Assembly: GCF_002798405.1 (NCBI RefSeq)
Contig: NZ_PGGV01000029.1
Coordinates: 248,001-312,000 of the forward strand
Source of the DNA: Glycomyces xiaoerkulensis
Lineage (GTDB): Bacteria > Actinomycetota > Actinomycetes > Mycobacteriales > Micromonosporaceae
Reading direction: 5' to 3'
DNA length: 64,000 nt
Shown: one piece after another, positions 4,929 to 15,660 of the stretch
Layout: the number at the start of each line of letters is the position of its first letter
Numbering within the stretch: the stretch's first letter is position 1
Made by a program: the position numbers and the translations under genes
Notes under the pieces: model-generated
What the model was told of the DNA's origin: nothing
The model's database searches: none
Seen by the model: the letters and a program-made list of their open reading frames with translations, nothing else

Positions 4929-5741
4929 ATGCGAGCAAGCCCGACCGCCGTACGCCTGCTGGGGCCCATCGGCGCCGCCCGCGACGGCCGCGAGATCCAC
5001 TTGGGGCCGTCCCGCGAACGCGAATGCTTTGCCGCCCTGGTCCTGCGCTGCGGCGCCCCGGTCCTGGTGGAACAGCTCATCGACGACCTCTGGGACGCCG
5101 AGCCCCCCGCCAGCGCCGTCAACGTCGTCCACACCTACGTCAGCCGCCTGCGCGGCCGCCTGGTCGCCCCCGAGTCCCGCGACCACGCCCTCGTCCGCTC
5201 CCTCCACCCCGGATACTCGATCGCCCCGGACGCCGTGGAACTCGACGTCCACGAGTTCGAGTCCGAGCGCCGCAGCGGCATGGCCCTGCTGTGGGCCGGG
5301 CACCTCGATCAGGCGCACGAGGCGCTGCGGCGCGCCATCGACCACTGGTCGGGCACGATCGCCCTGCACGGAGCGGTCGGCCCCCTCGCCTGCCGGGAGC
5401 GCCAGCGACTGACCGAGCACTACCTCGACGCCGTCGAACACTGCCTCGCCCTGCAGATGAAGGAGGGCCGCGGACTCGACACCATCGCGGAACTGACCGC
5501 ACTGGTCGGCAAGCATCCGTTCCGGGAGCGCCTGTGGATGCTGTTCATGCTCGCCCTGGCAGTCGCCGACCGCCGGGGCGAGGCTTTGATCGCTTACCAC
5601 GACCTGCGCCGCCGCCTCAACGAGGACCTGGGCATCAACCCGTCCCAGCGCGTGCAGCGCTTGTTCGGCGACCTGGTCTCGGAGAAGCCTCCCGGCGAGG
5701 TCTGGGACGACCACTTCCGACTGACCACGCAAAACAGATGA
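4929..5741 (+). CDS. SARP-family transcriptional activator (BTAD domain)
   Basis: A 270-residue DNA-binding regulator of the AfsR/SARP type, short because it lacks the NB-ARC and TPR parts of large AfsR proteins. An OmpR-like winged helix (about residues 5-95, with REREC, VVHTYVSRLRGRL and HPGYSI) is followed by a bacterial transcriptional activation domain (about 100-260). The ATG at 4929 follows GGAAGGAAAGC. The stop codon overlaps a possible ATG of the aldo/keto reductase gene by four bases, so the two are probably one transcript. SARPs usually activate secondary-metabolite genes. The target here is not obvious; the reductase and the glycan cluster downstream are the nearest candidates. 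Confidence 0.85.
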   Translation: MRASPTAVRLLGPIGAARDGREIHLGPSRERECFAALVLRCGAPVLVEQLIDDLWDAEPPASAVNVVHTYVSRLRGRLVAPESRDHALVRSLHPGYSIAPDAVELDVHEFESERRSGMALLWAGHLDQAHEALRRAIDHWSGTIALHGAVGPLACRERQRLTEHYLDAVEHCLALQMKEGRGLDTIAELTALVGKHPFRERLWMLFMLALAVADRRGEALIAYHDLRRRLNEDLGINPSQRVQRLFGDLVSEKPPGEVWDDHFRLTTQNR

Positions 5742-5758
5742 ACCGAGAAAGGAAAGCG

Positions 5759-6757
5759 ATGCGCAAGCACGTCATGACCCCCTCCCCGCGCGCCGACGGC
5801 GAGGCCGACCTCGAAGTCTCGCGGCTGTGCCTGGGCACCATGGACTTCGGCACCAAGACCGGCCGCGACGAGGCATTCCGGATCCTCGACCGCTACGCCG
5901 AGGCCGGCGGCAACCTGCTCGACAGCGCCAACTGCTACGCGTTCTGGGCCGAAGGCGGCACCGGCACCGACAGCGAGCGGCTCATCGGCGAATGGCTGGC
6001 CGACCGCGGCATGGCCGGGCGCATGCAGGTGGCCACCAAGGTCGGCGCGGATCGGGCCCGGCCCGAGGAGCCCTACAGCGGCCGCAACCGCGAGGGGCTC
6101 GCGGCAGAGCGCGTCCGCGAACAGGCCGAGCAGAGCCGGGACCGGCTCGGCGTGGAGTCGATCGACCTGTACTACACCCACGTCGACGACCGGTCCACCG
6201 ACCAGGCCGAGACCGTCGAGGCCCTCGGTTCCCTGGTAGCCGACGGCACCGTCAAGGCGCTGGCCGCCAGCAACCACACCACCTGGCGGTTCCACCGGGC
6301 CCGCGCCATCGCCGCCGAGCGGAACCTGCCGGCCTACCGGGCGATCCAACTGCGCTACACGTACATGTACCCGCGCCCGTCGACGGTCCCGGTGCCCGAG
6401 GCGATCCAGTTGCCGGCCACCGACGAGCTGCTGGACTACGCCGAGTCCGAGAACGTGGCCGTCTTCGCCTACTCGCCGCTCTCCGGCGGCGCGTTCGACC
6501 GCGAAGACCGCCGGCCGCCGCCCGAGCCGGTCGACTACGATCACCCCGGGTCGGAGGCGCGCATCGCATTCGTCCGGAAGGTCGCCGCCGAACTGGGCGC
6601 CACCCCGGGGCAGGTGGTGCTGGCCTGGCTGATGGCCCACCGCGCCGCCGTCGTCCCGGTCATCGGGGTCAGCTCGGTCGCCCAGCTCGAACTGGCCCTG
6701 GGCGCCCTGGAGATCGAGCTGGACGCCGAGACCCTCGCCCGCCTCAACGCGGCCTGA
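5759..6757 (+). CDS. Aldo/keto reductase
   Basis: A 332-residue NADPH-dependent oxidoreductase of the TIM-barrel AKR family. The catalytic tetrad is visible as D55, Y60 (LLDSANCYA), K94 (ATKVGA) and H141 (YYTHVDD). The C-terminal cofactor region includes VIGVSSVAQLELA. The ATG at 5759 is preferred because AGAAAGGAAAGC sits just upstream; an alternative ATG at 5738 would overlap the SARP stop. Linkage to a SARP suggests a specialised-metabolism reduction, but the substrate cannot be told from sequence. The gene ends convergently with the glycosyltransferase at 6744, overlapping it by 14 bp. Confidence 0.9.
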   Translation: MRKHVMTPSPRADGEADLEVSRLCLGTMDFGTKTGRDEAFRILDRYAEAGGNLLDSANCYAFWAEGGTGTDSERLIGEWLADRGMAGRMQVATKVGADRARPEEPYSGRNREGLAAERVREQAEQSRDRLGVESIDLYYTHVDDRSTDQAETVEALGSLVADGTVKALAASNHTTWRFHRARAIAAERNLPAYRAIQLRYTYMYPRPSTVPVPEAIQLPATDELLDYAESENVAVFAYSPLSGGAFDREDRRPPPEPVDYDHPGSEARIAFVRKVAAELGATPGQVVLAWLMAHRAAVVPVIGVSSVAQLELALGALEIELDAETLARLNAA

Positions 6758-7772
6758 GCCGCACCCGCGGGCGGCGTCCGGGACGCGACCCGGACGCCGC
6801 CCGCCCCGCCAGTCCCACCGCGATGCCGCAGACGGTCACCGCCAGCACCGACAGGTGGATCAGGGCGAAGCCGCAGGCTGCCGGCAGACCGTAGTTGGCG
6901 CGGGCGAATCCGAGCAGTCCGCGCTCGCCGACCAGCGCCACGACCAGCGCCGCGGCGGTGACGAGGAGCAGGGGCGGGTAGAGGACGGCCGCCGCGGTCG
7001 CGGCGATCGCCGCGGCGATCGCGGCCAGCGTGGACAGCCGGTTCATCCGCTCGAACTTCATGTGCTTGAAGCGGGCGGCGATCTCGGGCAGCGGCACCGA
7101 CCGTCGCCACATCATCGCCAGGGCCCGCAGCAGATTCGGCTCGCCGTCGTGGCGCACCCGGAGGTCGGCGGCGATGGCGATGGCCGCGTCCCCGCCCAGC
7201 CGGGCGCTGTACTCCATGTCCTCGCAGTCTCGCAGGCCCTCGTCGAAGCCCCCGAACCGCTCGAAGACGGACGGGCGCGCCGCGGCCACCGAGAACCGTG
7301 CGAGCCGGGCCGGGCCGACCGAGCGGTGCAGCAGATGGGATTCGCGTCCGACCAGGTAGCGGCCGACGGCGCCGCTGCCCGGCAGGGGATGCGGGTCGAG
7401 TACGCCGTGCACGATGTCGAGGTCGGGGTCGCGCTCGAACGCCGCTACGGCGCGTTCGACGGCGTCGGGGTGCGGTTCGATGTCGGAGTCGAGAAAGAAC
7501 AGCAGATCGCCGAAGGCGGCCGCGATGCCCCGGTTGCGGGCGGCCGAGACGCCCCGGTTGCGCTCCTGCCGGATGATCCGGCAGCCGAACCGGGCGGCCA
7601 CGGCGGCCGAGGAGTCGGTGCTGGCGTCGTCGACGACGATCAGCTCGTCGGGGGGCCGGCTCTGGGCCTTGACGGCCTCCAGGCACAGCGGCAGCGCGTC
7701 CTCGTCGTTGAAGCACGGGATGATGACGCTGACGCTGGTGGCGGGGTGGGTCGGGTCCGGGGTCGTTTCCAC
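6744..7772 (-). CDS. GT2-family glycosyltransferase with C-terminal membrane segments
   Basis: A GT-A fold transferase using a nucleotide sugar. The N-terminal domain shows VSVIIPCFND, LIVVDDASTD, the NRGVSAARNRG loop and the LDSD metal-binding motif. Two or three hydrophobic stretches follow in the C-terminal 120 residues (AAIAATAAAVLYPPLLLVT and beyond), so it is probably anchored on the inner face of the membrane. The GTG at 7772 was chosen because GGAGCAG precedes it and it starts like its paralogue at 14668; an upstream ATG at 7847 would add a basic extension with no clear ribosome site. It is divergent from the aminotransferase operon and likely belongs to the same glycan cluster. Acceptor and sugar are unknown. 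Confidence 0.85.
   Translation of the reverse strand: METTPDPTHPATSVSVIIPCFNDEDALPLCLEAVKAQSRPPDELIVVDDASTDSSAAVAARFGCRIIRQERNRGVSAARNRGIAAAFGDLLFFLDSDIEPHPDAVERAVAAFERDPDLDIVHGVLDPHPLPGSGAVGRYLVGRESHLLHRSVGPARLARFSVAAARPSVFERFGGFDEGLRDCEDMEYSARLGGDAAIAIAADLRVRHDGEPNLLRALAMMWRRSVPLPEIAARFKHMKFERMNRLSTLAAIAAAIAATAAAVLYPPLLLVTAAALVVALVGERGLLGFARANYGLPAACGFALIHLSVLAVTVCGIAVGLAGRAASGSRPGRRPRVRLRPR
6767..6804. terminator. Bidirectional terminator hairpin inside the GT2 3' end
   Basis: A perfect 16-bp inverted repeat (6767-6782 with 6789-6804, loop ACGCGA) lies 10 bp past the aldo/keto reductase stop. It forms the last codons of the convergent glycosyltransferase. It probably ends the AKR transcript; the Arg/Pro-rich GT2 tail may be a by-product. 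Confidence 0.65.
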
Positions 7773-8076
7773 GCTCTGCTCCAAGTGGTCGCGGCGGTTT
7801 CGGACCCACGGTAGGCACCGGGCTTTGACGCGGCCCCGATCGCGCATGGAGCCGATCTGGACTACCCGGCGTCACCTCGCCGATGCGCCGATGGCGTCTT
7901 CATTGGAATGTCCTGACCGGAAGTCACCCGGTGGGCACGGTGGGTGGTTAAGGCGGGCTCTAGGTCAAGTCGAGTCCGGTTCCAGTACCGCCGCCTACGT
8001 TCGGAGAAGTGACCCTGACCAGTGGAACGAGGCCCGTCCCGGGACCCGTCCCCGGCGTCCGATCGGAGTTCCGGCC
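7773..8076. other. 304-bp divergent intergenic region
   Basis: It separates the GT2 gene from the aminotransferase operon and must hold both promoters. No -35/-10 pair with good spacing, operator or riboswitch was recognised. If the upstream GT2 start (7847) is used, it shrinks to 229 bp. Confidence 0.5.
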
Positions 8077-9489
8077 ATGCGACTGATTGACATCGAAGAA
8101 GCCGAGCAGCTTTCGCTCAAGGAGGTGCAGCAGCTCTACCGCGAATACGTCAACTCCAGCCAGGTCTCGCTGATGCGCTCGTTCGGCTTCGGCCGCGAGC
8201 TGGTCGAACGGGCCGAGGGCTGCTATCTGTACCTGAAGGACGGTCGGCGCATCACCGACCTCACCGGAGGGGTGGGGGTGCTCAACCACGGGCACAACCA
8301 CCCGCGCATCCTCGAGGCCCGCCGGCGCTTCGCCGAGCGCCGGCGCATGGAGGTCCACAAGACCTACTTCTCGCCGTACCTGGCGGCGCTGAGCCACAAC
8401 CTCGCCCAGATCCTCCCCGGAGACCTCGACCACGCCTTCTTCCCCAACTCCGGCGCCGAATCCATCGAGGGCGCGGTCAAGTGCGCCTACAAATACCACC
8501 GCGGCAAGCGCGGCACCGTCCTGCGCGCCACCACGGCCTTCCACGGCAAGCTGCTGGGCTCGGGCGGACTCACCGCGGCCCAGGGGCACAGCTTCAGCTT
8601 CCCGACCATCCCCGGCATCGCCGACTTCGAATACGACGACCTCGACTCGGTGCGCGAGGCCGTCGCCGCCCACAGCGGCGACGTGTACGCCCTCCTGATC
8701 GAGCCGTTCAGCGCCTCCACGATGCGGCAGTGCTCCGAGGAGTTCCTGCTGGGGCTGCGGGCGCTGTGCGATCAGGAGGACATCGTCCTGATCTACGACG
8801 AGATCTACACCGGCTGGGGCAAGACCGGGAGCATGTTCCACTTCACCCGGTACGAGGGGCTGGTCCCGGACATCCTGTGCACCTCCAAGGCGCTCGGCGG
8901 CGGGAAGTCCTCGATCTCCGGATTCGTGGTGCGCGGTCCGGTCTACCGCAGGGCCTACGACAACCTCGGCGACGCGCTGCTGCAGACGACCAGCACCACC
9001 TACTACGGCTTCGGCGAGGAGAACGCGACCGCCATTGAGGCCGTCCGCATCGCCGTCGAGGACGACTACCCGGCCCGCGCCCGCGACATCGAGGCGATCC
9101 TCGCGCCCGGTCTGGAGCGGATCGCCAAGGCGTTCCCCGACGACGTCGCCGACGTGCGCGGCTCGGGTGCGCTGTGGGGCCTGTTCCTCCAGGGCAATCC
9201 CGGCCTGGTCGAGTCGATGCTCAAGCTCGTGCCCGGGGGCCTGTCGAAGGACCCCGGATTCCGCAACAAGCTGCTGGCCTCGGCCTTCCTCCAGGCCATG
9301 TACGAGGACCACGGGATCTACCTGTACTACACCCTCAACGGCGACCATCCGGTGGTGATCGGGCCGCCGCTGGTGACCCCGCCGGACGAGATCCGTCGCT
9401 GCCTGGAGGCGATCGAGGCGACCCTGTCGATCGGCGTCGGGAAGCTGGTGCGCCGCTTCCTCAAGCAGAAGGTGAGCCACCTGTGGTGA
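8077..9489 (+). CDS. Class III (PLP-dependent) aminotransferase
   Basis: A 470-residue fold-type I aminotransferase. Visible features are the small-domain start GCYLYLKDGRRITDLTGG, the PLP phosphate site PNSGAESIEGAVKCA, LIYDEIYTGWGKTG with the ring-nitrogen Asp, and K271 in SKALGGGKSSISG as the likely Schiff-base lysine. It is the first gene of a tight operon: its stop overlaps the GTG of the epimerase gene by four bases, then UbiA, an EEP protein and a GT4 follow. In this setting it may aminate a sugar or cyclitol that ends up on a lipid carrier; that role is inference. The ATG at 8077 agrees with the family's N-terminal length. Confidence 0.87.
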   Translation: MRLIDIEEAEQLSLKEVQQLYREYVNSSQVSLMRSFGFGRELVERAEGCYLYLKDGRRITDLTGGVGVLNHGHNHPRILEARRRFAERRRMEVHKTYFSPYLAALSHNLAQILPGDLDHAFFPNSGAESIEGAVKCAYKYHRGKRGTVLRATTAFHGKLLGSGGLTAAQGHSFSFPTIPGIADFEYDDLDSVREAVAAHSGDVYALLIEPFSASTMRQCSEEFLLGLRALCDQEDIVLIYDEIYTGWGKTGSMFHFTRYEGLVPDILCTSKALGGGKSSISGFVVRGPVYRRAYDNLGDALLQTTSTTYYGFGEENATAIEAVRIAVEDDYPARARDIEAILAPGLERIAKAFPDDVADVRGSGALWGLFLQGNPGLVESMLKLVPGGLSKDPGFRNKLLASAFLQAMYEDHGIYLYYTLNGDHPVVIGPPLVTPPDEIRRCLEAIEATLSIGVGKLVRRFLKQKVSHLW

Positions 9490-10619
9490 ACGCGCTGCCC
9501 TCGCCGGTCCTGGTGACCGGCGCCGCCGGGGTCCTCGGCTCGAACCTGACCGACCGCCTGCTCTCGGCGGGGGCCGAGGTGGTTGCCTACGACCGCCGCG
9601 AGGTCCCGCCGGCCGACCGGCTCCGCGCCGTCACCGGCGACGTGCGCGACCGCGGCGAGCTGACCCGGGCCGCCTCGGGCTGCCGGGCCATCGTCCACTG
9701 CGCCGCGGCCCTGCCCTCCTACCCCAGGGCCGAGATCCGCTCGATCACGGTCGGCGGCGCCGAGTCGGTGCTGGAGGCGGCCGCGGCCGCGCGCGCGGAA
9801 CGGCTCGTCCACATCTCGTCGACGGCGGTCTACGGCTTGCCCGAACGCGTCCCCACCCCCGAGGACCATCCGCACGAGCCGGTCGACGCCTACAGCGCCG
9901 CCAAGGCCGAGGCCGAGCGCGCCGTCGCCGCCCGAGCCGCCGAACGCTGCACCTCGATCGTGCGGCCCAAGACCTTCCTGGGGCCGGGCCGCCTGGGCCT
10001 GTTCGGCATGCTGTTCGAGTGGGCCGAGGAGGGACGCGACTTCCCGATCATCGGCAAGGGCGACGTCCGTATCCAGATGCTCGACCTCGGCGACCTGGTC
10101 GAGGCGGTCGCGACCGTCCTGGCCGCACCCGACGAGACCGCCGCCGACACCTACAACATCGGAGCGGCCGACTTCGCCACCATCCGGGAGGACTTCCAGG
10201 CGGTCCTGGACGCGGCCGGGCACGGCCGGCGCGTCAGGTCCCTGCCGACCGGGCCGGCCGTGGCCGCCCTGCGCCTGGCCTCGGCCGCGGGGTTGTCACC
10301 GGTCTACGACCGGCTGGTCCGCAAGCTCAAGGCCGACTCCTATGTCGATATATCCAAGGCGCGCGAACGCCTCGGTTTCACGCCCCGCCACTCCAACCGC
10401 GAGGCCGTCCTGCGCACCTACCGGTGGTGGCGATCACTGCCGCAGTCCGACCCCGGCGCGGCCGGGGCCACCTCCGCCGACCGGTGGAAACAGGGCCTTC
10501 TCGCGAGCGCGAAGGTCTGCTTCCCCGCGCGAGCCAAGGGAACCGTCAAAGGGAGAGCCCATGACCAGCATCAAGACCGAGGCACCCTCACCGGTCGCGA
10601 CCGCGCTGGACCGGCCTAG
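9486..10619 (+). CDS. NAD-dependent epimerase/dehydratase (extended SDR)
   Basis: A 377-residue extended short-chain dehydrogenase. The Rossmann motif is LVTGAAGVLGSN, followed by GDVRD, the ISSTAVYG segment with the catalytic Ser/Thr, and YSAAKAEAE as the YxxxK pair. It likely epimerises, reduces or oxidises a nucleotide- or lipid-linked sugar. The GTG at 9486 overlaps the aminotransferase stop by four bases. The C-terminal 60 residues are rich in Arg, Lys and Ala and run 59 bp into the UbiA gene, an unusually long overlap for this compact operon. The last codons may be non-functional or the end may be disturbed. The UbiA partner recalls the epimerase pair of decaprenyl-phosphoryl arabinose synthesis. 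Confidence 0.82.
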   Translation: MNALPSPVLVTGAAGVLGSNLTDRLLSAGAEVVAYDRREVPPADRLRAVTGDVRDRGELTRAASGCRAIVHCAAALPSYPRAEIRSITVGGAESVLEAAAAARAERLVHISSTAVYGLPERVPTPEDHPHEPVDAYSAAKAEAERAVAARAAERCTSIVRPKTFLGPGRLGLFGMLFEWAEEGRDFPIIGKGDVRIQMLDLGDLVEAVATVLAAPDETAADTYNIGAADFATIREDFQAVLDAAGHGRRVRSLPTGPAVAALRLASAAGLSPVYDRLVRKLKADSYVDISKARERLGFTPRHSNREAVLRTYRWWRSLPQSDPGAAGATSADRWKQGLLASAKVCFPARAKGTVKGRAHDQHQDRGTLTGRDRAGPA

Positions 10620-11511
10620 CCGACCGAAGCGGGCCGGCGCCGCACTCGCGCTGCTGCGCCCGGTCCAGTGGGTCAAGAACCTCGCGGTCGGCCTGCCGCT
10701 GGTCGACCCCCGACTGTGGGCCCTCTCCTCCGGAGACGAGCTGGCCCTGGCCGTCGCCGCCTTCGCGGCGGCCTCGGCGATGGTATACGCGGTCAACGAC
10801 ATCGCCGACCGCGAACGCGACCGCCACCACCCGGTCAAGCGCCACCGCCCCGTCGCCTCCGGCGCGGTCTCGGTCCCGCGGGCGTGGATCCTGGCCGCCG
10901 TGTGCGCCGCCGCCTCGCTCGCCGCCGTGGCCGCGGCACCGATCCTGGCCGCCCCGGTCGCGGCGTACGCGGCGATCAACTTCGCCTACAGCCGCAAACT
11001 GCGCGAGATCCCCGTGCTCGAACTGTTCAGCGTCGCCTCCGGATTCCCACTGCGGGCCGTCGCAGGCTACCTCGCGCTGGGGGCCGCCCCTTCCGGCCTG
11101 GTCGTACTGTCGGTCCTGTTCGCCTCGCTGCTGCTGGTGCTCGGCAAGCGCAGGCGGGAACTGGTCGTCGCCGGAACCTCCCACCGATCGGCCCTCTCGG
11201 GCTACACGCCGACCCTGATCGACCAGTACGTCTCGATCACCGCCGGGCTCGCGACCGCCACGTTCCTGCTGTTCGCCCTCCACGGCCCCGGATCGCCCGG
11301 CGATGCGGGGCCGCTGCCGCTGCTGGGGGTTCCGCTGCTGGTCGCCGGCCTGTTCCGCTACCTGCAGCTCCTCACCGTGCGCGGGGGCGACGGCGACCCC
11401 ACCCGCATCCTGCTGCGCGACCCGGTACTGGTGGCCGTCGCCGTCTCCTGCGTGGCGCTGATCGCCGCCTACACCGCGATCGACCCTGCTCTGTGGACAG
11501 AAGGAAGATGA
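10561..11511 (+). CDS. UbiA-family prenyltransferase, DPPR-synthase-like
   Basis: A 316-residue membrane protein with about eight to nine hydrophobic helices. The first Asp-rich motif, NDIADRERDRHHPVKRHRP (starting at residue 79), closely resembles that of 5-phosphoribose-1-diphosphate:decaprenyl-phosphate phosphoribosyltransferases, so transfer of phosphoribose or a similar group to polyprenyl phosphate is the leading idea. A second motif region near NFAYSRKLREIPVLEL fits the family. The ATG at 10561 follows AAAGGGAGAGCCC. Ubiquinone- or menaquinone-type prenylation cannot be ruled out, but the neighbours (epimerase, glycosyltransferases, flippase-like protein) favour lipid-linked sugar synthesis. 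Confidence 0.85.
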   Translation: MTSIKTEAPSPVATALDRPSRPKRAGAALALLRPVQWVKNLAVGLPLVDPRLWALSSGDELALAVAAFAAASAMVYAVNDIADRERDRHHPVKRHRPVASGAVSVPRAWILAAVCAAASLAAVAAAPILAAPVAAYAAINFAYSRKLREIPVLELFSVASGFPLRAVAGYLALGAAPSGLVVLSVLFASLLLVLGKRRRELVVAGTSHRSALSGYTPTLIDQYVSITAGLATATFLLFALHGPGSPGDAGPLPLLGVPLLVAGLFRYLQLLTVRGGDGDPTRILLRDPVLVAVAVSCVALIAAYTAIDPALWTEGR

Positions 11512-11514
11512 ACC

Positions 11515-12642
11515 GTGACCGGACTGCTGGAAGACCGGCCCGCCGCCACCGAATCCCGTCGGCGCTGGTGCTGGGGGACCCGAATCGTCGTCGCCGCGGC
11601 GTCGGCCTGGACGGTGTTCCTGATCGCCCACCTGCTGCTGACAGGCGAAGTCTGGTGGTGGTCGGCCATCGAGATGACCCCGCCGCCGGCCTTGGCCCTC
11701 CCCCCGGCGGTCCTGGCCGTCGGCGCGCTGTGGGCCGCCCGCGGCGTGCGCTGGCGGGTGGAGGTCGTCGCCGCCACCACCGCCCTCATCGTCGCCCCCA
11801 TGACCGGTTTCAACCCGGCGGCGCTGCTCGAGGACGGTGAGCCCGACGGTGAGGCCGATCTGAGGGTGTTCTCGTGGAACACCGACTACTGGCACGTCAG
11901 GTTCGACGACCCGGAGGCGTTCTACGACCACCTGCTGGAACAGGACGCCGACGTCTACCTGCTCACCGAATACCTCACCCGGACGAACATGGTGGTGCCC
12001 ATCGACGACGAAGCGGCGCTGCGCGAGCACTTCGAGGGCTGGCACATCTCCATCGCCAGCGAGATGGTCACCATCTCCCGCCATCCGATCGTCGAGCAGC
12101 GCGCCATCGACACCACCGGCGTGATCGGCCCCGACGATCCGGGCGCCCCCGGCGAGGGCGACTGGGAGGAGTACTGGACCACCAAGGTCCTCCGCACCGA
12201 CGTCGAAGTGGACGGCCGGATCGCGTCGCTCTACAACCTGCACCTGGCGGTGCCGGTCCCCACCGAAGGGTCGAGCCCCTTCGGCGGCGAGTTCTGGGGC
12301 CACGTCCGCGCCCAGTACCAGCGCCGCTCCGCCCAGGTCGACCTGCTCCTGGAGGACCTGGCGGGCAATCCGCACCCGGTGCTGGTTGCCGGGGACCTCA
12401 ATTCCTCCGCACTGAGCGGGGCGGTCACCGCTCTGAAGAACCGGCTGGACTGCCCCGATCCCGACGGCGAATTCCTCCCCACAAGCTGGCCCCAGCGCCG
12501 CTTCGGCTTCCCCCAACTGTGGAGGCTCGACTGGGCCTGCACCGGCACCGGAGCCTCCATCGCCGGATACGGCTTCGGCACCGCCGCCGGCATGTCCGAC
12601 CACAAGTCCCAGCACATCGACCTGGTCCTGGGGGAGGCGTGA
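11515..12642 (+). CDS. Membrane-anchored endonuclease/exonuclease/phosphatase-fold protein
   Basis: The 375-residue product begins with three hydrophobic segments (about residues 24-95) and continues with an EEP domain. RVFSWNTDYW, DADVYLLTEY, AGDLNSS and the final SDHKSQHIDLVL match the family's Asn, Glu, Asp/Asn and Asp-His positions. The topology would put the catalytic domain outside the membrane or loosely attached to it. In a cluster with a DPPR-synthase-like enzyme, a phosphatase that removes phosphate from a lipid-linked sugar phosphate is an attractive role; nuclease activity is the alternative. The GTG at 11515 starts three bases after the UbiA stop, and its stop overlaps the GT4 start by four bases. 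Confidence 0.82.
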   Translation: MTGLLEDRPAATESRRRWCWGTRIVVAAASAWTVFLIAHLLLTGEVWWWSAIEMTPPPALALPPAVLAVGALWAARGVRWRVEVVAATTALIVAPMTGFNPAALLEDGEPDGEADLRVFSWNTDYWHVRFDDPEAFYDHLLEQDADVYLLTEYLTRTNMVVPIDDEAALREHFEGWHISIASEMVTISRHPIVEQRAIDTTGVIGPDDPGAPGEGDWEEYWTTKVLRTDVEVDGRIASLYNLHLAVPVPTEGSSPFGGEFWGHVRAQYQRRSAQVDLLLEDLAGNPHPVLVAGDLNSSALSGAVTALKNRLDCPDPDGEFLPTSWPQRRFGFPQLWRLDWACTGTGASIAGYGFGTAAGMSDHKSQHIDLVLGEA

Positions 12643-13775
12643 CCGAACGATTCGACGCCTGCGTCGTGCTCAACTACTACGCCCCCTACATCAGCGGACT
12701 CACCCAGGTCGCCCGCGACGTCGCCGAGTCCCTGGCCGGGCGCGGCCGCCGGGTGGCCGTGGTCGCCTCTCGGCACCACCCGGACCTGCCCCGCCGCGAG
12801 GAACTCGGCGGCGTGCACGTCTTCCGCTCCCGCGTGGCCGCCCGGATCGGCCGCGGTGTCATCAGTCCGGAGTTCATCGGGCTGGCCGGGCGCGTGGCGC
12901 GGCGATCGGCCGTGGTGAACCTGCACCTGCCGATGCTGGAGGCCGGACCGGTCGCCCGCGCGGCCGGGAACACCCCGATCGTGTGCCACCACCACGACGA
13001 CGTGTGGCTGCCCGGCGGCGCCCTGGCGTCGGCCCAGATCGCCGTGGTCGAGCGCTCGGTGGCCGCGTCGCTGCGCCGCAGCGCGGGCGTGGTCGTCTCC
13101 AACCTCGACCACGCCCGGGACTCGCGGCACTGGCACCTGATGCGGCGCCGGAAGGTCCACGAGATACCGCCGCCGTGCCGCCGGCGCGGCCTCGGTCGGC
13201 CGTCCTTCCGCGACGGGCCCGGCCCGCACGTGGGCTTCCTCGGCCGCATGGCCCCCGAGAAGGGCCTCCACCACCTGGTGGCTGCGTTCGGCCACTGGCC
13301 CGACCCCGAGGCGCGGCTGCTGCTGGCCGGGGAGGAGTCCGGCGTCGCCGGCGGCGGAGTCGCGGCCGAACTGCGCCGCCTCGCCGACGACGACCGGCGG
13401 GTTCGGTTCCTCGGGCGACTCGACGAGGCCGAGTTCGGCGACTTCCACGCCTCCATCGACGCCTTCGCACTGCCGTCGGTCGCCGAAGAGTCGTTCGGGA
13501 TCACTCAGACCGAGGCGCTGATGGCCGGAGTCCCGGTCGTCGCCAGCGACCTGCCCGGCATGCGGGTACCGGTGCGCACCACCGGATTCGGTGAGCTCGT
13601 GCCCGCCGGCAGCCCCGAGGGCCTGGCCGCGGCGCTGCGGAGGGTGTGCGCCTGGGGGGATGAACGCCGCGTCCGCGGCGCCGAAGCCGCCCGCGACACC
13701 TACTCCATGGAATCGACCTTGGAGTCGTATGCCGAGGCGCTCGACGAGGCCGCCGACCGCGCGGCCCACAGGTAG
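12639..13775 (+). CDS. GT4-family glycosyltransferase
   Basis: A 378-residue GT-B fold enzyme. The N-terminal acceptor domain begins VVLNYYAPYISGLTQV, and the C-terminal domain has VGFLGRMAPEKGLHHLV and the EX7E signature in EESFGITQTEALMAGVPVVAS. It likely transfers a hexose from a nucleotide sugar, retaining the anomeric form, to a lipid-linked acceptor on the cytoplasmic side. The GTG at 12639 overlaps the upstream stop by four bases, tying it to the aminotransferase-epimerase-UbiA-EEP operon. Its 3' end overlaps the convergent flippase-like gene by 76 bp. Confidence 0.88.
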   Translation: MTERFDACVVLNYYAPYISGLTQVARDVAESLAGRGRRVAVVASRHHPDLPRREELGGVHVFRSRVAARIGRGVISPEFIGLAGRVARRSAVVNLHLPMLEAGPVARAAGNTPIVCHHHDDVWLPGGALASAQIAVVERSVAASLRRSAGVVVSNLDHARDSRHWHLMRRRKVHEIPPPCRRRGLGRPSFRDGPGPHVGFLGRMAPEKGLHHLVAAFGHWPDPEARLLLAGEESGVAGGGVAAELRRLADDDRRVRFLGRLDEAEFGDFHASIDAFALPSVAEESFGITQTEALMAGVPVVASDLPGMRVPVRTTGFGELVPAGSPEGLAAALRRVCAWGDERRVRGAEAARDTYSMESTLESYAEALDEAADRAAHR

Positions 13776-14671
13776 ACCGCCAGGGCCGCCAGCAGCTCGC
13801 ACACCGTGGCCACGACCCGGCTGGTGATGGCGACCGCCGCGGCCATCGGCAGCGGTACCACCAGCGTGAGCGTCGCGGTCAGGATGCCCTCGCGCACCCC
13901 CAGGCCGTCGGGGACGATCAGGACCAGCGCCCCGACCACGGTCGCGAGCCCGAACAGGCCCACGCACAAGGCGTACGACTCGAGCGGGTCGGCGCCGGCG
14001 GCCACCACCAGCGCCCACAGGTGGTGCCCGCCGACGATCCACGACCCGGTCTGGAGCCCCAGCGCCCTCCGGATCGAGCCCGGCCCGTAGTCCAGCTCCA
14101 CCGGCGAGCGCCGGAACAGCCGGCACACCAGGCGCATCGCGACCTCCACCAGTTGCGGACGCGCGAACAGCACCAGAGCCGGCAGCGAGGCCGCGGCCAC
14201 CCACGCCCACCGGTCACCGAAGGCGGTCCGGGCCGCCAGCAGACCCACCAGCATGCCGGTCGCGACCATGACCACGATGTTGAGGAAGTACACGCCGGTC
14301 ATCCGGGAAGCGGGGATGCCCGCGCCCGCCCCCATCCGCAGATTGACCAGCAGCGTCCACAGGCGACCCGGCAGGTACTTCACCAGCATGCCCGCGAAGT
14401 AGATCTTCGCCGCCTCCGGAAGAGCCACCCGCGATCGGCCCCCGTCGGCCAGCGCGTGCCACGACAGCATCGCCAGCCCCAAACCCACCACGTTGACCGC
14501 CCCGGACACCGCGATGAGCGGCAGATGCTCGGCGTCGGCGAACGCCGCGGCCTCGCTCCAGTCCTGGCCGCGCATGGCCGTCCAGATCGCGACCGCCACC
14601 GCGACCATCACCGCCGCGCCCGAGACCCGCCACAGGATCCGGCGCACCCGCGCCCACCGGTTGCCACTCAC
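13700..14671 (-). CDS. Flippase-like integral membrane protein (LPG synthase TM / UPF0104 family)
   Basis: A 323-residue polytopic protein with about eight hydrophobic helices and the family's KYLPGRLWTLLVNLR and PDGLGVREGILTA segments. Only the transmembrane part is present; there is no cytosolic aminoacyl-transferase domain. Members next to glycosyltransferases are thought to move lipid-linked intermediates or help position them. The GTG at 14671 overlaps the stop of the upstream GT2 by four bases, so the two form a transcription unit that converges on the operon at 8077-13775. A role in exporting the lipid-linked product of that operon is inference from position. Confidence 0.8.
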   Translation of the reverse strand: MSGNRWARVRRILWRVSGAAVMVAVAVAIWTAMRGQDWSEAAAFADAEHLPLIAVSGAVNVVGLGLAMLSWHALADGGRSRVALPEAAKIYFAGMLVKYLPGRLWTLLVNLRMGAGAGIPASRMTGVYFLNIVVMVATGMLVGLLAARTAFGDRWAWVAAASLPALVLFARPQLVEVAMRLVCRLFRRSPVELDYGPGSIRRALGLQTGSWIVGGHHLWALVVAAGADPLESYALCVGLFGLATVVGALVLIVPDGLGVREGILTATLTLVVPLPMAAAVAITSRVVATVCELLAALAVYLWAARSAASSSASAYDSKVDSME

Positions 14672-15660
14672 GGCCGCACCGTCCAAACCGCCGGGCGCAG
14701 AACGCCGACCAGGGCGGCCAGACCGGCGGTAGCCACGTACAGCAGATGCAGGCCGAACACCGCCGCGACCCATCCCGGCCCCCGGACCGCCGCGCCCCGC
14801 AGCAGGCCGGTGTTGGCGACGCCGAACACCGCCGCCGCCGCAGGCGGCACCACCGCCAGCGGCGGCCACCACATCGCCAGCGGCAGCCCGGCCACCACCA
14901 ACGCGCACGACAGGACCGTGACCGGGCCGAGCGAGACGGTGCGGACCGACTGGCCCCCCTCGGCCGATCGCCGGGAGCGGATCAGCAGCTCGGCGAACCG
15001 CAGCGAGCGCTGCCACTGCTCGGCGAGCAGCCCGCCGAGCGTGTCGACGTCGTCGTGGCGGCCCCGGACGGCCGGATCGGTGCGGACGGTCCAGCGCGGC
15101 GGGAGGCGGGTGCCCAGTTCGACGTCCTCGCCGTCGCGCAGCGACTCGTCGAACCCGCCGGTATCGGCGAACGCCTTGGCGCGGATAGCGGTGAGCGCGA
15201 AGAGCGTGGCCGAGCCCGTCCCCGCGGCCCGAACCCGCCAGTGGTGTTCGAACAGGACCTTGTACCGCTCGACCGGACCGTCGTCGACCAGCGGTTCGGG
15301 AGCGTAGACGCCCTGCACGACGCCGGTGTCCGCGTCGGCCTCCAGCGCGTCCGCCGCCCGCTCGAGCGCGTCGGGCTCCAGCGCCAGATCGCTGTCGAGG
15401 AAGAACAGGACCTCGCCGGCGGCCGTGGCGGCGCCGAGGTTCCGCGCCGCCGCCGGACCCCGGTTCGGCCGCTGCTCGACCACGCGGCATCCGAACTCGG
15501 CGGCGATCGCCGCCGAGCCGTCGGTACCGGCGTCGTCGACCACGATGACCTCGCCCGGCGGGGCGGTCTGCGCGAACACCGACTCCAGGCACCGGCGCAG
15601 CGTCTTGGCCGCGTTGTGGCAGGGGATGACGACCGACCATTCGGTGAGCGGTGTGGACAT
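14668..15660 (-). CDS. GT2-family glycosyltransferase with C-terminal membrane segments
   Basis: A 330-residue paralogue of the transferase at 6744. The GT-A core shows WSVVIPCHNAAKTL, VIVVDDAGTDG, PNRGPAAARNLG and FFLDSDLALEPDALERA, then FDESLRDGEDVELG. Two or three hydrophobic stretches close the C-terminus (LAMWWPPLAVVPPAAAAVF and LHLLYVATAGLAALVG). The ATG at 15660 gives a standard N-terminus. The pairing of two similar GT2 enzymes at both ends of the cluster suggests successive sugar additions, or addition of polyprenyl-linked sugars; the donors are unknown. Confidence 0.87.
   Translation of the reverse strand: MSTPLTEWSVVIPCHNAAKTLRRCLESVFAQTAPPGEVIVVDDAGTDGSAAIAAEFGCRVVEQRPNRGPAAARNLGAATAAGEVLFFLDSDLALEPDALERAADALEADADTGVVQGVYAPEPLVDDGPVERYKVLFEHHWRVRAAGTGSATLFALTAIRAKAFADTGGFDESLRDGEDVELGTRLPPRWTVRTDPAVRGRHDDVDTLGGLLAEQWQRSLRFAELLIRSRRSAEGGQSVRTVSLGPVTVLSCALVVAGLPLAMWWPPLAVVPPAAAAVFGVANTGLLRGAAVRGPGWVAAVFGLHLLYVATAGLAALVGVLRPAVWTVRP

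Follow-up and report, generated by a model that had tools for sequence, protein, structure and literature searches.

The closest described relatives of the locus treated here are pathways that build pentofuranose residues on a polyprenyl-phosphate carrier. Kelly et al., 2024 (PMC11127046) describe ribofuranose as entering glycans from phosphoribosyl pyrophosphate (PRPP) rather than from nucleotide sugars, with one route passing via a lipid carrier. The three-component pentofuranose pathway of Citrobacter youngae O1/O2 is presented there as a UbiA-type polyprenyl phosphoribose synthase (PPPRS) with a HAD phosphatase, a candidate MATE flippase and a GT-C glycosyltransferase (GT). According to the same paper, a mutant, its complementation and nuclear magnetic resonance show that a single short-chain dehydrogenase/reductase (SDR), ORF13, with TGxxGxxG and YxxxK motifs, sets the addition of xylofuranose versus ribofuranose, its action on the lipid-linked ribose being those authors' own inference; the structural family of the phosphatase is said to vary between systems. 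A second point of reference is the mycobacterial decaprenyl-phosphoryl-arabinose pathway (Rv3806c, DprE1/DprE2). Here we compare with both a conserved unit of ten genes at 4929-15660 of a window of 64,000 nucleotides from Glycomyces xiaoerkulensis (NCBI RefSeq assembly GCF_002798405.1, contig NZ_PGGV01000029.1, positions 248,001 to 312,000). A preliminary description of this DNA had pointed out eight of these genes, at 6744-15660, and proposed an undescribed pathway for a lipid-linked amino-sugar glycan.

The unit shares with the C. youngae systems a UbiA-type synthase, an SDR and candidates for flippase and phosphatase, the likeness to ORF13 being one of motifs and proposed role. Whereas the C. 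youngae systems have a HAD phosphatase fused to UbiA, a MATE flippase, a GT-C of family GT136 and no aminotransferase, the window unit has a class III pyridoxal-phosphate (PLP) aminotransferase, a membrane protein of the EEP (endonuclease/exonuclease/phosphatase) superfamily, an MprF-fold protein, GT4 and GT2 enzymes, a SARP-type regulator (Streptomyces antibiotic regulatory protein) and an aldo-keto reductase (AKR), with no GT-C. Pfam finds no MATE match in the unit and, as MATE flippase and GT-C are both absent from the locus, we do not class it as a three-component member, although its way of working would be similar. The class III aminotransferase is what is new relative to the published pentofuranose systems; the word aminotransferase occurs nowhere in the main text of PMC11127046. 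Taken as a whole, the unit is best explained, with a likelihood barely above even, as an accessory and probably SARP-controlled pathway in which an amino-sugar is made on a membrane lipid carrier. The observation made in the preliminary description is confirmed and its interpretation partly supported.

Sequence comparison strongly supports polyprenyl-phosphoribose as the predicted entry point of the pathway, given the match of the UbiA protein to Rv3806c, the retention of the PRPP-site residues and the occurrence of relatives of the SDR near such UbiA proteins elsewhere. The profile of the cluster UbiA (10561-11511, forward strand; PF01040, E 1e-21) retrieves from the PDB the decaprenyl-phosphoribose synthase (DPPRS) structure 8j8j at E 2e-59 and 8j8k, of the same protein, at 6e-45, the other UbiA structures following at E 7e-10 or weaker; both entries are of the mycobacterial PRPP:decaprenyl-phosphate phosphoribosyltransferase Rv3806c. 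The nearest NCBIfam model, the best of three, is likewise that of decaprenyl-phosphate phosphoribosyltransferase (180.5 bits). PMC10994848 reports the residues of Rv3806c that bind PRPP, Mg or the lipid phosphate. Among 86 UbiA proteins of the clusters, which represent 80 distinct sequences after five shorter gene calls were set aside, Y70, N73, D77, K87, R90, Y138 and K191 are kept in all 86, R22 in 81 and K28 in 84 with gaps in the remainder, and position 143 is always K or R. Since N73 and D77 are common to the whole UbiA superfamily, while the phosphoribose site is described as lacking conservation elsewhere among UbiA enzymes (PMC10994848), it is the other residues that carry the argument. 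The window protein scores at most 39.5 bits with quinone-, heme- or chlorophyll-type models and passes the cut-off of none. The genome has three further UbiA-superfamily proteins, a heme O synthase, one of the MqnP/4-hydroxybenzoate-prenyltransferase type and one unassigned, and searching it with the window UbiA at E 1e-10 gives no second match; thus the window protein is the only PPPRS candidate found in this genome. We conclude that it is very probably a polyprenyl phosphoribose synthase, as the preliminary description had it in calling the protein DPPR-synthase-like.

The mycobacterial arabinose pathway begins with the same type of enzyme, most of whose PRPP site is kept here; it differs in that the SDR of the window unit is of the extended type and an aminotransferase is added. 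We found no DprE1 equivalog in the genome (97.65% complete), where the two ALO-family matches score 91 and 42 bits and the cut-off is 500, and the window UbiA has no counterpart at E 1e-10 in 15 of the 22 genomes of the genus. The arabinan pathway was set aside on these grounds, and a role of the window UbiA in making arabinan by the known route seems not to apply. For the contrast drawn earlier, arabinan synthesis is not the best yardstick, the three-component pentofuranose systems of 2024 (PMC11127046) being closer.

The aminotransferase (8077-9489, forward strand; PF00202, E 3e-62) and the SDR of NAD-dependent epimerase/dehydratase type (9483-10619, forward strand; PF01370, E 5e-38), which has a conserved C-terminal tail, are encoded by genes that overlap by 7 bases in the window. 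K271, the expected PLP lysine, is invariant together with D241 and E242 in 97 of 97 aligned aminotransferases (90 distinct sequences). In 97 aligned SDR proteins S112, D37 and the Y137/K141 pair of the YxxxK motif are universal, as is G19 of TGxxGxxG, while T12, G13 and G16 occur in 77 with gaps in the other 20; an aspartate such as D37 suggests use of NAD. A hopanoid HpnA reading of the SDR was rejected at 91.3 bits against a cut-off of 367.65. As the relatives of this SDR sit near UbiA proteins of the same type in other organisms, its proposed role on a lipid-linked pentose rests on genomic context as well as on published precedent. As for the aminotransferase, we lean slightly toward its acting on the lipid-linked pentose.

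Conservation of the gene neighborhood was followed by scanning a collection of species genomes with an aminotransferase profile. The scan returned 187 relatives; the 80 best loci were analyzed (the remaining 107 lie outside the analysis), and counts were taken over the 65 full-length loci among them, leaving aside 15 that are not full-length. Six core families, namely the aminotransferase, SDR, UbiA, GT2, EEP and UPF0104 proteins, are all present in 63 of the 65: SDR, EEP and UPF0104 in 65 each and UbiA and GT2 in 64 each, the aminotransferase being in 65 by construction as the loci were chosen by it. These figures include a tblastn recheck of eight loci with a missing core family, which recovered genes overlooked by the gene caller, those for UPF0104 in six full-length loci and that for UbiA in one; in L058 and L100 UbiA was counted from shorter or gapped matches. 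Five control loci of other class III aminotransferases, one of them only 7.7 kb long, carry none of the five other families. Thus the neighborhood, whose lack of conservation had been named beforehand as a ground for abandoning the idea, recurs elsewhere. The SDR gene lies directly 3' of the aminotransferase gene in all 80 loci, and in 54 of 73 loci as called the two overlap, 36 of these 73 having the 7-base overlap of the window. The distance matrices of aminotransferase, SDR and UbiA correlate at r 0.84-0.87 over the 73 loci, with none of 999 permutations as high, a figure that overstates independence because the 73 loci are related among themselves.

The set is common to many soil actinomycetes, with loci in Streptomyces, Micromonospora, Salinispora, Nonomuraea, Herbidospora, Kitasatospora, Amycolatopsis, Actinosynnema and Glycomyces. 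Within its own order, aminotransferase orthologs of at least 62% identity are present in 14 of 298 genomes, its own included. In the genus, 7 of 22 genomes have one match each to the window UbiA (E 1e-10), with the neighborhood examined in three of the seven: the pathway is accessory. Among 50,697 phage records there was no phage-borne relative. Optional genes in the full-length loci comprise the AKR in at least 45, the SARP in at least 27, a GT4 in at least 17, NodB-like deacetylases and methyltransferases in at least nine each and a GT87 in at least seven of the 65, these being lower bounds because the gene caller overlooked genes elsewhere. Two or more EEP genes are present in 34 of the 65, and in 45 the UPF0104 gene has a GT2 gene as its immediate neighbor. 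NodB-like deacetylases, GT87 and methyltransferases are mostly found in Micromonosporaceae loci, the seven GT87 loci being six of Micromonosporaceae and one of Nonomuraea.

From these elements the following course can be proposed. The UbiA protein would move 5-phosphoribose from PRPP to polyprenyl phosphate, a step that is well supported by its sequence relationships. Oxidation of the lipid-linked ribofuranose by the SDR would follow, with C3 or C2 as the likeliest position, as proposed for the published epimerases, and the adjacent aminotransferase would turn the ketone into an amine and so prevent its reduction back, giving a polyprenyl-phosphate-linked amino-pentofuranose. The precedent of ORF13 (ribose to xylose) would place the ketone at C3, and amination at C5 is unlikely if the pentose keeps its 5-phosphate. 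GT4 and GT2 enzymes might next lengthen the product or make other lipid-linked sugars, and the UPF0104 protein might move the product across the membrane. Finally, an outward-facing EEP protein could take off the 5-phosphate or free or recycle the lipid carrier. Where a GT87 is present, in seven loci, the lipid-linked sugar could serve as its donor.

For the EEP protein (11515-12642, forward strand, with the start at 11515 or 11614; PF03372, E 2e-11) a model with a pLDDT (predicted local distance difference test) of 91 shows three helices at the N-terminus, one of them just 15 residues long, and then an EEP-fold domain whose structural matches include neutral sphingomyelinase, Tdp2 and mannosyl-6-phosphatase; of the three helices only the first passed the hydropathy scan. 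An excess of positive charge is found at the N-terminus in 19 of 29 sequences, in the second loop in 23, in the first loop in 8 and in the linker in 6. The catalytic domain is therefore predicted to be probably outside, the topology being only likely as the excess is present in 19 of the 29 N-termini and 23 of the second loops rather than in all. With such a placement the 5-phosphate would be removed after flipping, or else the protein would free or recycle the carrier. Accordingly, the protein might not act as the cytoplasmic phosphatase in the scheme of the preliminary description. As a membrane-anchored EEP protein it is probably akin to the VanJ-type proteins of Streptomyces. The two differ in setting: the window protein belongs to a biosynthetic set, whereas VanJ is a member of the van cluster, tied to teicoplanin resistance (PMC6001138).

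The UPF0104 protein (13700-14647, reverse strand, with the start possibly up to 14686; PF03706, E 3e-9) passes the Pfam LPG_synthase_TM model with 37.3 bits against a cut-off of 33.4. Its structural model (pLDDT 88.5) has MprF proteins as its five best Foldseek hits, at E 1e-3 to 6e-2 and query TM-scores of 0.55-0.63, and we consider it a flippase candidate of predicted MprF-like fold. A UPF0104 partner does not set this pathway apart, as had been thought, since a UPF0104-type protein recurs near such a UbiA on a haloarchaeal plasmid. The two GT2 enzymes (6744-7847, PF00535, E 1e-34; and 14668-15660, PF00535, E 1e-33; both on the reverse strand) each have two C-terminal hydrophobic stretches, and the region of the left one, GT2a, matches the GT2b of the metagenome-assembled genome (MAG) locus L043 at 47%, which bears out their description as two related membrane enzymes. 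A GT4 enzyme is encoded at 12639-13775 on the forward strand (PF00534, E 6e-23).

Several observations weigh against an amino-pentofuranose made on the carrier. The main loose end is the EEP protein: it is predicted outside, and the scheme is left without an assigned enzyme for cytoplasmic removal of the 5-phosphate. Pfam gives no HAD match in the window unit. The UbiA falls below the NCBIfam equivalog cut-off (180.5 against 207 bits), and in all 86 cluster proteins Q135 is replaced by N, S or T and Y157 by F, while K208 is not kept; according to PMC10994848, Q135 of Rv3806c contacts ribose O3 and position 157 is F in some mycobacteria too. The nearest solved aminotransferases, putrescine (E 6e-59) and acetylornithine aminotransferases, act on terminal amines, judging their substrates from the molecule names, and this would favor an aldehyde at the terminal carbon C5 as the site of amination. 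No MprF hit of the UPF0104 model has E < 0.001, and its profile aligns weakly with that of the haloarchaeal UPF0104 protein (probability 13.6%). The window unit has no GT-C by Pfam, and both GT87 matches found in the genome map to a different contig. A search within 3 kb of the cluster for proteins of at least 330 residues with at least six hydrophobic stretches, leaving out four small families (L047/L057, L072, L094 and L034/L116), yielded GT87 as the only qualifying GT-C among the scanned families, the others being MMPL, CstA, SSF and MFS. By tblastn, L107 is without UbiA and L119 without GT2; none of the four haloarchaeal and rhizobial stretches discussed below has an aminotransferase; and SARP-type 11-base repeats gave nothing convincing in ten stretches upstream of candidate operons.

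One alternative is that UbiA and SDR make a plain lipid-linked pentofuranose (ribose or an epimer), as in the published systems, and that aminotransferase and AKR contribute a separate part of the product, such as an amino-alcohol or an amino-sugar that is attached later. The published systems need a PPPRS and an SDR only (PMC11127046), and the four stretches of other organisms show no aminotransferase. Streptomyces SAT1 (L026) has an SDR-UbiA operon without the orthologous aminotransferase, the only one being 34% identical and on the other strand. Yet in all 80 loci, a set admittedly chosen by aminotransferase, that gene stands directly before the SDR gene and often overlaps it, and both enzymes are co-inherited with UbiA, so that we hold a plain pentofuranose to be rather unlikely. 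It is more improbable still that the product is a small secreted compound, a SARP-controlled secondary metabolite freed by a phosphodiesterase-like EEP protein from a lipid serving as a mere scaffold. The SARP genes called in 27 of 65 loci, with other regulators beside some others, would suit it, as would the outside placement predicted for the EEP protein, its multiple copies in 34 loci and the patchy occurrence in the genus. The core is, however, without an exporter, no SARP was called in 38 of the 65 loci, and a flippase-like protein with GT2 and GT4 enzymes would suit a surface glycan equally.

Two further explanations would do away with the lipid-linked pentose altogether. An ordinary quinone or aromatic prenyltransferase in a meroterpenoid or lipid pathway could be entertained from Pfam, which gives only the broad UbiA family, but the 180.5 bits of the phosphoribosyltransferase model stand against at most 39.5 for the quinone, heme and chlorophyll models and the phosphoribose site is largely kept. 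We ruled out a quinone or aromatic UbiA on these scores and residues, and the explanation is left with very little probability. Even less credible is a chance neighborhood of unrelated genes: GT2a is indeed inverted in the window relative to the related loci, but six core families stand together in 63 of 65 loci against the aminotransferase only in each of the five controls.

Returning to an amino-sugar made on the carrier, what is eventually built on it can be proposed only tentatively. A widespread and unrecognized group of actinomycete natural products or surface glycolipids may be based on polyprenyl-phosphate amino-pentofuranose, the aminotransferase intercepting the keto intermediate of the epimerase on the carrier; we rate this as possible but somewhat short of an even chance, and that the kind of end product has been identified is doubtful. 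The NodB-like deacetylases and GT87 encoded nearby would fit a glycan. The variable presence of NodB, GT87, methyltransferase, MMPL and phosphodiester glycosidase genes suggests related but diversified glycans, and the SARP genes suggest control as for a specialized metabolite. A partial literature search, mostly without subscription journals, found no description of the cluster by title or abstract start, in line with the earlier view of an undescribed pathway, and no product named for the set, yet its genera have been much mined for antibiotics. If the proposal is true, amino-sugar synthesis would take place on a lipid rather than a nucleotide, a new route to such sugars, and the resulting donor or glycolipid would be of a new class, with the UbiA signature and the adjacent aminotransferase-SDR pair as a simple search handle.

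Relatives of the SDR beyond the actinomycete set were sought by tblastn on plasmids, giving 15 records, of which two are actinomycete loci already known; four of the other 13 (33-41% identity) were examined. On a plasmid of Natronococcus sp. CG52 (L168:6962-14185) the relative is 41% identical and lies in a stretch of about 7 kb with a DolP-mannose-mannosyltransferase family (Mannosyl_trans4) protein, a UPF0104 protein, a PHP protein, a UbiA and a PMT-family protein. This UbiA, within about 6 kb of the SDR gene, is of the cluster type (hhalign probability 100%, 29% identity), and going by its genes the locus is apparently an archaeal pentofuranose system with the PHP protein in the place of the phosphatase. 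On three rhizobial plasmids the SDR relative (34-36%) is accompanied by an SMR transporter and a GMC oxidoreductase. A UbiA is found within about 6 kb on the opposite strand in pNGR234a (36%) and S. garamanticum, fused in the former to a HAD domain that takes the place of the phosphatase, while in Mesorhizobium pMLa there is no UbiA within the stretch examined. These loci thus resemble the window unit in a UbiA of the same type near an SDR relative, and Natronococcus also in UPF0104, but differ in the phosphatase candidate, in the PMT and Mannosyl_trans4 proteins of Natronococcus and in having no aminotransferase in the stretches examined. Besides the transporter and oxidoreductase, the pNGR234a set (L166:7247-16910) has the HAD-UbiA fusion, another oxidoreductase and a protein of 658 residues that no Pfam model matches. 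To judge from these predicted proteins, it seems to be a lipid-linked pentose system carried by a symbiosis plasmid; nodS and nodU are upstream of its SDR relative.

Gene finding by codon-position composition and Pfam and NCBIfam scans of the window proteins confirmed the eight genes reported before with their boundaries. To these are added, on the forward strand, the SARP-type regulator (Trans_reg_C + BTAD; 4929-5741; PF03704, E 2e-33) at the left end of the conserved unit and the AKR (5759-6757; PF00248, E 6e-56); both belong to the unit as they are co-linear in the same-genus loci and in the MAG locus L043. The right end is formed by the second GT2 gene. One gene order is common to L044-L046 (Glycomyces), L028 and L029 (same genus) and L043, with L029 and L046 probably representing one genome: SARP, AKR, GT2, aminotransferase, SDR, UbiA, EEP and GT4, then UPF0104 and GT2 on the opposite strand. 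The L043 aminotransferase is 90% identical to that of the window. The left GT2 gene (6744-7847) has the reverse orientation and is only about 50% like the GT2 gene at the same place in L043, the other nine genes being 72-90% identical, which would point to a local replacement or inversion.

Some neighboring genes were recorded in passing. An MMPL-family protein is encoded right behind the cluster in one Streptomyces group of 12 loci (L070, L075, L080, L083, L085-L087, L105, L108, L112, L114 and L120; the member in L083 was scanned), and in some of these a sugar ABC transporter and glycoside hydrolase family 3 (GH3) genes are on the far side. Nonomuraea gerenzanensis (L025:25024-26595) has a gene for an NAGPA-type phosphodiester glycosidase 3' of the cluster. 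At 152-246 of the window ARAGORN gives an unusually long, 95-base tRNA-Glu(ttc) candidate, which may be false since Rfam finds no RNA in the window at the gathering threshold. Solo relatives of the SDR are also found in a distant actinobacterial family (f32), in 29 of 396 genomes searched, with cluster genes in none of the eight loci examined. In six of the eight (L151, L152, L153, L154, L157 and L165) the SDR gene, at 9486-10535 in L151, is near zwf, opcA, pgl and the gene for 6-phosphogluconate dehydrogenase, as named from L151, and these neighbors hint at pentose metabolism.

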